This document shows positions 13,814 through 16,875 of a DNA stretch of 64,000 nt, piece after piece. The notes below the pieces were generated by a model. That model saw nothing but the letters and a program-made list of their open reading frames with translations. It was not told where the DNA came from and did not search any database. Origin of the DNA: Thermoflavifilum thermophilum (GTDB lineage Bacteria; Bacteroidota; Bacteroidia; Chitinophagales; Chitinophagaceae); assembly GCF_900116565.1 (NCBI RefSeq), contig NZ_FPCJ01000001.1, forward strand, positions 1,776,540 through 1,840,539, in the 5' to 3' direction. Made by a program: the position numbers and the translations under genes. The stretch's first letter is position 1; each line of letters opens with the position of its first letter.

Positions 13814-14350
13814 ATGTGGAATGTTTACACACCCTTCTCCTCACTTTCTTCAGCTGCTAACAAGCGGCAGGAAAGCAGCAACCCGTCGGGTTCTGTTATG
13901 GTACAGCAAAGTTCCACAAAAACCCATAGAGTAATGAAAAAGATACTGATTATTGACGACAGCAAGCCCATTCGATATTTGTTGGATACCATTATCAGCA
14001 AATATTATCAGGTGATTACGGCTTCGGATGGATATGAAGCGATGTATTGGCTTTCACAGGGAAACAGGCCCGATGTGATTATATCTGACTTGCAAATGCC
14101 TAATATCAATGGATGGGATCTGGTGAAGAATCTCACTAGCAGTGCAATTTACGGTAACATTCCTATCATCATTTTATCGGGATCTTCCAGTGAAGAAATA
14201 GATCAAAAATGTGAAGAATATGGTGTAGCCGATTTTCTGGTAAAACCCTTTAATCCTTCTCGTCTTTTAGAAGCAATAAAAAAAGCGCTTGAGAAAAAAG
14301 CAGATTTGTCGGAAGATGTATCCGGCAGGCGTGCTGGTATGCATGGTTAA
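13814..14350 (+). CDS. Single-domain response regulator (receiver protein)
   Basis: The protein is 178 residues from the ATG at 13814, or 138 from the internal ATG at 13934. The first 40 residues are low-complexity and poorly conserved in character, so either start is possible. The receiver domain (about 42-165) keeps all key residues: acidic pair Asp48/Asp49 in ILIIDDS, phospho-acceptor Asp92 in IISDLQMP, Ser122 in ILSGSS and Lys144 in FLVKPF. There is no DNA-binding or enzymatic output domain, only a short charged tail. It therefore probably acts by protein-protein contact. The next gene encodes an initiating sugar-phosphate transferase with a degenerate receiver-like N-terminus, which is an attractive partner. 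No histidine kinase is in the window. Confidence 0.9.
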   Translation: MWNVYTPFSSLSSAANKRQESSNPSGSVMVQQSSTKTHRVMKKILIIDDSKPIRYLLDTIISKYYQVITASDGYEAMYWLSQGNRPDVIISDLQMPNINGWDLVKNLTSSAIYGNIPIIILSGSSSEEIDQKCEEYGVADFLVKPFNPSRLLEAIKKALEKKADLSEDVSGRRAGMHG

Positions 14351-14474
14351 CAAGATTTCGCGAAACGCTATTTAACCATCATTGAAATAACATATGTCAT
14401 TCGTATAGAAGTAAAAATGTGGTGAAGGAACTGTGTGATATATTTTCATCCATTAACCCCACAATTCTGATATC

Positions 14475-15626
14475 ATGGAAATTTATACAACCTTCACCAG
14501 GCCAGCAGATATTCCTGCATCCGTATCCAGCAACAGAAAAATGTTGTTGTTTATAGGAACCTGCAAGCCTGAGCTTATGAACAAACTCTCTGCTTTTGGC
14601 TACGTGGGTACATGGGTAGAAAATCTCTTCATGGCAAGAGAAGAATTGCTCAAATGGGCTTGCGAAGTTACCCATGCTCCGTTTTCTGAACGAGTTCCCC
14701 TGTCTGCTATTTTTTGTGATATTCATTTCCCTGTCCAGGAAATAAAGAGCTTTTTAAACGACATTCAGCAAATTTCTATTTTTCAAGAGGTGCCATTTTT
14801 CCTGATGCTAAAAAAGCAGCATTCAATCAAGGAAGCACATCACTATCAATTTCGGATTCAACAGATTAATGATTCGATTTATACCGATTCTAATCCATTT
14901 GTGATAGATCATAAAATCCGCTTTTATCAGCATTTTAACAAGATTCGTTTGCAGCATCCAGGCGTGGTGATGGGGGTGGAGCCTGAGTCTTTGAAATTGA
15001 AAATTGATAATGCTTTTAAACGTATATTCGATATTGCAGGGGGATTTTTGTTATTGTTGATACTTTCTCCTTTGTTTTTGCTCATTGCAATTGCTATTAA
15101 ACTGGATTCGCCCGGTCCTGTTTTTTATGTTTCTTTGCGTGCTGGTAAAGGTTTTCGGCTATTTAAATTTTATAAATTCAGGACAATGGTGCGTGATGCA
15201 GATCTGCGACTTTCTGAGATTGAAAAACTTAATAAATATCAGAGTGATCAACAGCAATCTCCCAAGTTTGTGAAAGTCAAAAATGATCCGCGAGTAACAC
15301 GGGTAGGTCGCCTGCTTCGAAAAACCAGCCTGGATGAGTTGCCGCAGTTGTTCAACGTTATTAAGGGGGATATGTCGCTTGTTGGCAACAGACCTTTACC
15401 AGTTTATGAGGCTGTTACGTTGACTACGGATCTTTATTCGACAAGGTTTATTGCTCCAGCTGGCATTACAGGCTTATGGCAAATTAGAAAAAACAAAAAA
15501 CCTGATATGTCTGTTGAAGAGCGCACCAATTTAGATGTGTACTACGCCCGGAAACGAAATTTTATATCAGATGTAAGGATTCTTTTCTCAACCCCTTTTG
15601 CTATGATTCAAAAGGAAGAACTATAG
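14475..15626 (+). CDS. Initiating phosphoglycosyl transferase with pseudo-receiver N-terminus
   Basis: The C-terminal half (about 180-383) is a bacterial sugar transferase of the WcaJ/PglC type: one membrane segment (about 188-208), [19 protein letters not shown] with Asp287/Glu288, SLVGNRP, and GLWQI near the end. These enzymes transfer a sugar-1-phosphate to undecaprenyl phosphate and start repeat-unit assembly. The four or five N-terminal helices of full-length WbaP/WcaJ are missing. Instead, residues about 22-160 show alternating strands and helices like a receiver: KMLLFIGT, then AIFCDIHFP with Asp82 where the phospho-acceptor would be, then EVPFFLML. The acidic pair, the Thr/Ser and the Lys are absent, so it would be a pseudo-receiver. 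The catalytic part is certain; the N-terminal assignment is a fold guess. Confidence 0.88.
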
Positions 15627-15651: not shown

Positions 15652-16875
15652 ATGTTTCTGTTGTATCTTATTTTTTCTTTGTTGTTAATTTATTTAGGAT
15701 ATTGCGTTAGCTATCTTCTTTTATTATCAGTATCCGGAAAAATATATCAAAGAAAGTTTTCCCGTGCCACATTGCCTGTAGCTCACAGCTATCGCAAAAT
15801 TGCGATTCTGATTCCTGCATATAAAGAAGATGCAGTTATCGTTTCGTCTGTATTAAGCTATGAGAAGATGAGATATCCAAAAGATTATTTTGATGTGTAT
15901 GTAATAGCTGATCAGTTGCAATCTGAGACTCTGGAAAAACTGCGTATGACGAAATCGAAAGTGATTCCTGTGAGTTTTGAAAAAAGTAGCAAGGCAAAAG
16001 CCATCAATGCAGCTTTTCAGCAGATTTCTGATGATTATGATATCGCATTGATTTGCGATGCTGATAATGTGCTTCATCCTGATTTTCTTTCACACATTAA
16101 TATTTGTTTTTCGAATGGGTATCTTGCTGTGCAAGGACAAAGAGTAGCAAAAAACCTGAACACACCGTATGCCATACTTGATGCAGCGAGTGAAATGATT
16201 AACAATCATTTGTTCCGGATGGGTAACAGAGCTTTGGGATTCAGTTCAGCTGTGATTGGATCGGGCATGGCCTTTGATTTTCAATTGCTGAAAGAAATAT
16301 TTCTGCAGATTGACACCCTGGGGGGATTTGATAAACAACTACAATTGCTACTTACCCAATCCGGAATTAAAATTTTTTACGAACCAAGAGCAATCGTATT
16401 TGATGAAAAGGTGACTCATTCTTCACAGTTTACAATACAGCGTAAAAGATGGTTGTTTAGCCACGTCCATTTTTTGCAAAACGACATTGGAAATGGATTT
16501 CTGCAACTCCTGAAAGGGAACATTGATTATTTCAATTTATCTGTACTTCAGGCACTTATTCCACCCCGGTTTTTATTGGGGGTCTGTATTCTCGCTTTTA
16601 CCATACTTTCCGGTGCAGCTTCCTTATTGTTTTCTGTACTGACCCCAGTCTGGATTGTATTTCTTATTCTGGGATTATTTTATTTGTTTTCCTTGTTATT
16701 AGCCATGCCATCCGGATTTTTATTCGGATATTTTGTTCCAAACCTGTCTCATGTTCCTTATATTTTCTTGTCTATGTTCTTAGCTTTATTTTCTGCAAGG
16801 GAGGCTAAACGCAATTTTTTACATACGGTTCATTTTCAACATCAGGTAAATAATCCTTTGTATGAGTATGAATAA
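15652..16875 (+). CDS. Membrane GT2 glycosyltransferase
   Basis: A 407-residue enzyme with an N-terminal membrane helix (MFLLYLIFSLLLIYLGY), a GT-A catalytic domain and three or so C-terminal helices. Visible motifs are ILIPAYKED, the metal site ICDADN, GGFDKQ in the place of the catalytic acid motif, and QRKRW (Q/RxxRW motif) near residue 263. That set is typical of polysaccharide-synthase-like GT2 enzymes that elongate at the inner membrane. It follows the initiating transferase by 25 bases and overlaps the next gene by 14 bases, so it belongs to the same transcription unit. Donor and linkage are not predictable. Confidence 0.88.
   Translation: MFLLYLIFSLLLIYLGYCVSYLLLLSVSGKIYQRKFSRATLPVAHSYRKIAILIPAYKEDAVIVSSVLSYEKMRYPKDYFDVYVIADQLQSETLEKLRMTKSKVIPVSFEKSSKAKAINAAFQQISDDYDIALICDADNVLHPDFLSHINICFSNGYLAVQGQRVAKNLNTPYAILDAASEMINNHLFRMGNRALGFSSAVIGSGMAFDFQLLKEIFLQIDTLGGFDKQLQLLLTQSGIKIFYEPRAIVFDEKVTHSSQFTIQRKRWLFSHVHFLQNDIGNGFLQLLKGNIDYFNLSVLQALIPPRFLLGVCILAFTILSGAASLLFSVLTPVWIVFLILGLFYLFSLLLAMPSGFLFGYFVPNLSHVPYIFLSMFLALFSAREAKRNFLHTVHFQHQVNNPLYEYE

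Follow-up and report, generated by a model that had tools for sequence, protein, structure and literature searches.

A conserved gene pair of a single-domain receiver and a pseudo-receiver-bearing phosphoglycosyl transferase as a candidate phospho-controlled switch of polysaccharide initiation in Bacteroidota

The window considered here is a 64,000-nt stretch of the Thermoflavifilum thermophilum genome (GCF_900116565.1, NZ_FPCJ01000001.1, positions 1,776,540-1,840,539 of the forward strand). It contains a response regulator gene followed by the gene for a monotopic phosphoglycosyl transferase (PGT) whose N-terminal part is a pseudo-receiver (PsR) domain. The features of the locus, in window coordinates, are the following:

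13814..14350, + strand: single-domain response regulator, 178 aa (open reading frame; family alignment of partner receivers)
13943..14281, + strand: receiver domain of the regulator, residues 44-156 (PF00072)
14351..14474, + strand: intergenic gap of 124 bp between regulator and transferase (coordinates)
14475..15626, + strand: monotopic PGT with N-terminal PsR, 383 aa (open reading frame, Pfam)
14538..14954, + strand: PsR domain, transferase residues 22-160 ((beta-alpha)5 fold, profiles)
15018..15608, + strand: catalytic Bac_transf domain, transferase residues 182-378 (Pfam, motifs)
15652..16875, + strand: family-2 glycosyltransferase downstream of the transferase (neighbour gene)

The transferase gene is the sole Bac_transf gene found in the 2.86-Mb genome of T. 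thermophilum, and its surroundings form a polysaccharide cluster with glycosyltransferases, an acyltransferase, asparagine-synthase-like and methyltransferase genes, a Wzx-type flippase and a Wzz-type protein. In relatives, the two genes lie close together or overlap, the receiver ORF and the open frame of the transferase being a median of 4 nt apart.

The regulator is a complete receiver (Pfam Response_reg, 88.1 bits against a cut-off of 30.2), and all phosphorylation residues that the original prediction had assigned to it (Asp48/49, Asp92, Ser122 and Lys144) are found at exactly these positions. The 40 residues ahead of Met41 are kept in congeneric genomes (pattern MWN.Y.PFSSF...), which makes 13814 the probable start. 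When positions are numbered from Met41 as 1 and the partner receivers are set against 25 other T. thermophilum receivers, a set of family positions (W-L..G-N, Ser70 and K-P-F-N-P) emerges that is absent or rarer in the latter: S70 occurs in 88% versus 0%, G43-N44 and W39 in about 60-65% versus 0%, and P108 in 100% versus 28%. This pattern suggests a dedicated binding surface. Since the receiver carries no output domain, direct protein contact is the only obvious route by which it could act, and the enzyme encoded next to it, with its homologous domain, would be the simplest partner.

The catalytic domain of the transferase matches Bac_transf (PF02397) with 201 bits, and its PGT motifs are intact, as both the re-entrant helix motif D186-X12-P199 and the dyad D287-E288 are invariant in a 73-sequence alignment. 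It thereby resembles WbaP/WcaJ and PglC, whose catalytic domains share the DX12P helix and the DE dyad, and Foldseek retrieves PglC (7e-14) and WbaP (2.5e-11) for this part. At window positions 15381-15401 the domain reads VGNRPLP, in which N305 is invariant in the family alignment, whereas the small PGTs compared have VGPRP, that is, GPRP in place of GNRP. It also differs from these enzymes at the N-terminus: the PsR stands where WbaP has a membrane bundle and a DUF, while PglC is a bare catalytic domain.

AlphaFold2, Foldseek, hhalign and the Pfam matches of relatives together identify transferase residues 22-160 as a degenerate receiver. Residues 1-173 alone have no Pfam or NCBIfam match. 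In AlphaFold2 models built with 73 relatives, both at full length and for the domain alone, residues 22-160 adopt a (beta-alpha)5 arrangement, mostly with pLDDT above 90, consisting of b1 (22-27), a1 (33-41), b2 (43-48), a2 (51-67), b3 (76-82), a3 (87-98), b4 (108-112), a4 (118-127), b5 (133-136) and a5 (141-160). A Foldseek search of the PDB with the isolated domain returns almost exclusively receivers at probability 1.00, and the full-length model again yields receivers for its N-terminal part. Homology is supported by hhalign between the PsR profile and the neighbouring receivers (probability 99, E 2.4e-18, 117 columns) and by a search of PDB sequences with the same profile, in which E values reach 1.4e-13 and the matches listed are essentially all receivers. 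Furthermore, the less decayed PsR domains of some relatives exceed the Pfam Response_reg cut-off themselves (L095 with 43.8 bits, L085, L096 and L109). The PsR of L193 is the most receiver-like and reaches 75 bits with a receiver model that was built from matches to the receiver of the window and may contain a few PsR domains; the Pfam-passing relatives, the hhalign result and the PDB profile search therefore serve as independent evidence. As read from its sequence, the L193 domain has Glu at the aligned acceptor and retains Lys-Pro-Phe.

These results bear out the earlier proposals that about 140 N-terminal residues follow a receiver-like order of strands and helices and that they replace the usual membrane N-terminus. 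Residues 1-170 contain no hydrophobic segment (maximal 19-residue Kyte-Doolittle mean 0.91, versus 2.88 at the re-entrant helix), which rules out a membrane N-terminus, and the AlphaFold2 model shows none of the four-helix transmembrane bundle of large monotopic PGTs. The predicted fold of the N-terminus is that of a receiver and not CoA-binding-like, and fold and profile searches together rule out a CoA-binding or WbaP-DUF identity. In one relative (L094:9443-10603, Flavihumibacter sp. CACIAM 22H1), the PsR-like and catalytic parts lie in separate ORFs, possibly owing to an assembly frameshift.

The phosphorylation residues have had opposite fates in the two proteins. In the profile alignment, Ile27-Gly28 of the transferase occupy the site of the acidic pair, a residue other than Ser/Thr stands at the Ser position and Thr137 lies near the Lys position, in agreement with the original prediction that the acidic pair, Ser/Thr and Lys are all missing from this domain. 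Among 197 gene pairs, the partner receivers keep the acceptor Asp in 190/197, the Lys in 191/197 and the full set in 157/197, while no PsR (0/197) has the full set and only 11/197 have Lys at the aligned column. The phosphorylation residues are under selection in the receiver and not in the PsR. The prediction had also held that Asp82 is retained at the acceptor position; it does align with the acceptor Asp, but it is no conserved remnant, being Asp in only 66 of the 197 sequences, Glu in 59 and Gln, Arg, Tyr, Asn or His in others. A conserved phosphorylatable Asp82 is ruled out by this variability. Separately, an acidic pair near strand 5 (residues 132-133) is among the best conserved features of the PsR, with Asp in 134/197 at the first position and Asp/Glu in 190/197 at the second; the T. 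thermophilum domain has Asn-Asp there (window positions 14868-14873).

The pairing of the two genes is strongly conserved. A receiver lies directly upstream of the PsR-transferase in 206 of 210 cases in a pooled, non-redundant sample with duplicates removed, whose members are not phylogenetically independent, so that the proportion describes the sample. By comparison, no receiver adjoins other monotopic PGTs (0/12, comprising 0/10 ordinary ones in genomes of the same family and 0/2 others), and chance adjacency is ruled out. The same arrangement is seen in 29 of the first 30 relatives and, with few exceptions, across 80 loci from Chitinophagaceae, Cyclobacteriaceae, Saprospiraceae and other Bacteroidota. 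The four exceptions among the 210 are L022 (at a contig end), L057, L113 and L208, the last of which has a receiver and kinases further up the gene string. In L057:4920-7799 (Flexithrix dorotheae), the PsR-transferase forms the end of a 960-aa ORF with no receiver adjacent, and the first ~600 residues of this variant have no convincing Pfam match; the N-terminus is unrelated, and no natural fusion of receiver and transferase was found among the relatives. Class-wide, the transferase family had matches with E values no higher than 1e-95 in 59 of 395 genomes, including a few whose proteins lack the PsR.

Control of an initiating PGT by a phosphorylated receiver is already known from one myxobacterial system. 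In Myxococcus xanthus, EpsW~P activates EpsZ post-translationally, and a direct EpsW-EpsZ interaction has been proposed on the basis of proximity labelling, heterologous activity and modelling (PMC12802240, mBio 2025). The likeness is that a single-domain response regulator is paired with the monotopic PGT that starts a polysaccharide pathway. However, EpsZ belongs to the large PGTs and has a bundle of four transmembrane helices followed by a cytoplasmic DUF, whereas the T. thermophilum transferase has a PsR instead of the bundle. Orthology was rejected, as both proteins miss the NCBIfam equivalog cut-offs (NF041866, 54.7 bits versus 200 for the receiver; NF041877, 144.6 versus 800 for the transferase). 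The Bacteroidota pair is a separate version of this principle, with a PsR within the enzyme; no description of this receiver/PsR-transferase pair in Bacteroidota was found in the literature searched. PMC12802240, citing O'Toole 2021, mentions receiver domains fused to small monotopic PGTs, and, going by this mention, these proteins are possibly less degenerate members of the PsR-transferase family; relative to the fusions as cited there, the present proteins add a dedicated adjacent receiver, lost phosphorylation residues and gene strings with kinases. Pseudo-receivers that work with a partner response regulator are also represented by WhiI-BldM and CmrT-CmrR, for which heterodimers are known or proposed (PMC12632262), but these are DNA-binding regulators, whereas the PsR of T. 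thermophilum is attached to a membrane enzyme.

On balance, the gene pair is fairly likely to constitute a phospho-controlled initiation switch in which the receiver binds the transferase, most likely through the PsR. In this scheme, a putative sensor kinase, unlinked in the T. thermophilum genome, would phosphorylate Asp92 of the receiver, which would then bind the transferase by docking on the homologous N-terminal PsR, perhaps with the catalytic domain as an additional contact. Binding would change the activity or oligomeric state of the enzyme, so that the first sugar-phosphate transfer to undecaprenyl phosphate, and with it the entire polysaccharide pathway, would be controlled without transcription. 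Physical binding, the PsR as docking site, the geometry of a heterodimer and the identity of the kinase are all putative elements of this scheme, and activation rather than inhibition is assumed by analogy.

The strongest competing explanation, which nevertheless appears unlikely, holds that the PsR is a homodimerisation or scaffold domain replacing the cytoplasmic domain of WbaP-type enzymes and that the receiver targets the catalytic domain instead of the PsR, as EpsW partly does in EpsZ. Twelve PsR-less transferases belong to the same catalytic clade, and four of them have an adjacent receiver, five a receiver roughly 2-3 kb upstream and three none on the same strand. The PsR is therefore dispensable for the association between receiver and PGT, which is wider than the PsR itself; the almost invariable adjacency in its presence is nonetheless stricter than in these PsR-less members. 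Receiver distances track the catalytic domain at least as well as the PsR (partial correlation 0.35 versus 0.26), covariation (mean-field DCA, 197 pairs, effective number 168) is no stronger between receiver and PsR than between receiver and catalytic domain, and tree correlation gives no signal specific to receiver and PsR. In addition, EpsW as modelled touches both the DUF and the catalytic domain of EpsZ. Against an action on the catalytic domain alone, the PsR domains match the partner receivers better than other T. thermophilum receivers in most comparisons, although the comparison set favours this outcome. This resemblance fits an origin of the PsR by duplication of the partner receiver, without amounting to proof. 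A more far-reaching form of the docking model, in which a copy of the partner receiver was joined to a small monotopic PGT, ceased to be phosphorylated and, as the PsR, serves phospho-dependent heterodimer docking in much of the Bacteroidia, is plausible but commands slightly less than even confidence.

It is improbable that the receiver regulates another product of the operon, such as the chain-length protein or the glycosyltransferase encoded downstream, or that it acts as a phosphate sink, with adjacency reflecting operon order only. Downstream genes are likewise conserved, the gene after the transferase falling into two main similarity clusters (33 and 30 of 75 loci); because the downstream glycosyltransferase genes are conserved too, part of the linkage between receiver and transferase is ordinary operon conservation. 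Yet the type of gene that follows the transferase varies whereas the receiver does not, the adjacency extends over several Bacteroidota families and a receiver-derived domain lies inside the transferase itself. That the PsR alone senses a ligand or the membrane state, with a separate role for the receiver, is very improbable: direct, phosphorylation-independent regulation is among the possible PsR mechanisms (PMC12632262), but no invariant ligand pocket is apparent in the PsR, and strong conservation is confined to a Pro and the acidic pair close to strand 5.

The pair bears on the question of when bacteria commit undecaprenyl phosphate to exported polysaccharide; myxobacteria provided one demonstrated case of a phospho-controlled PGT in 2025. 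In many Bacteroidota, polysaccharide production is probably switched at the initiating enzyme itself, and the module, being common in this phylum, offers many natural receiver-transferase pairs. For pseudo-receivers, whose mode of activation a 2025 review described as a mystery, it also serves as a test case, as the candidate partner receiver is encoded by the adjacent gene and a kinase lies nearby in some relatives.

Regarding the signal input, none of the 26 HATPase_c matches in T. thermophilum lies inside the 64-kb window by their listed coordinates, and only 5 of 80 relatives with wide flanks have a kinase that passes an H-box/G-box filter. Where kinases do occur, they take several forms. 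In L092, an HK-REC-HPt kinase identified by Pfam belongs to the same gene string as the pair. The PsR-less loci L219, L221 and L223 share the order hybrid kinase, single-domain receiver and small PGT, with the HK-REC-HPt architecture confirmed by Pfam in L219 and L223 (HisKA, HATPase, REC and Hpt), and L221, L323, L324 and L330 contain candidate kinases by sequence similarity. In L208 and L316, the genes immediately ahead of the transferase encode a FIST-domain protein and a histidine kinase, with the receiver several kb further up the string. Finally, Pfam assignments at L086:5582-10984 reveal an H-NOX (haem-NO-binding) protein, a HNOBA-PAS hybrid kinase with a receiver, two receivers and the PsR-transferase, a gene string hinting at gas-sensing control of polysaccharide initiation.
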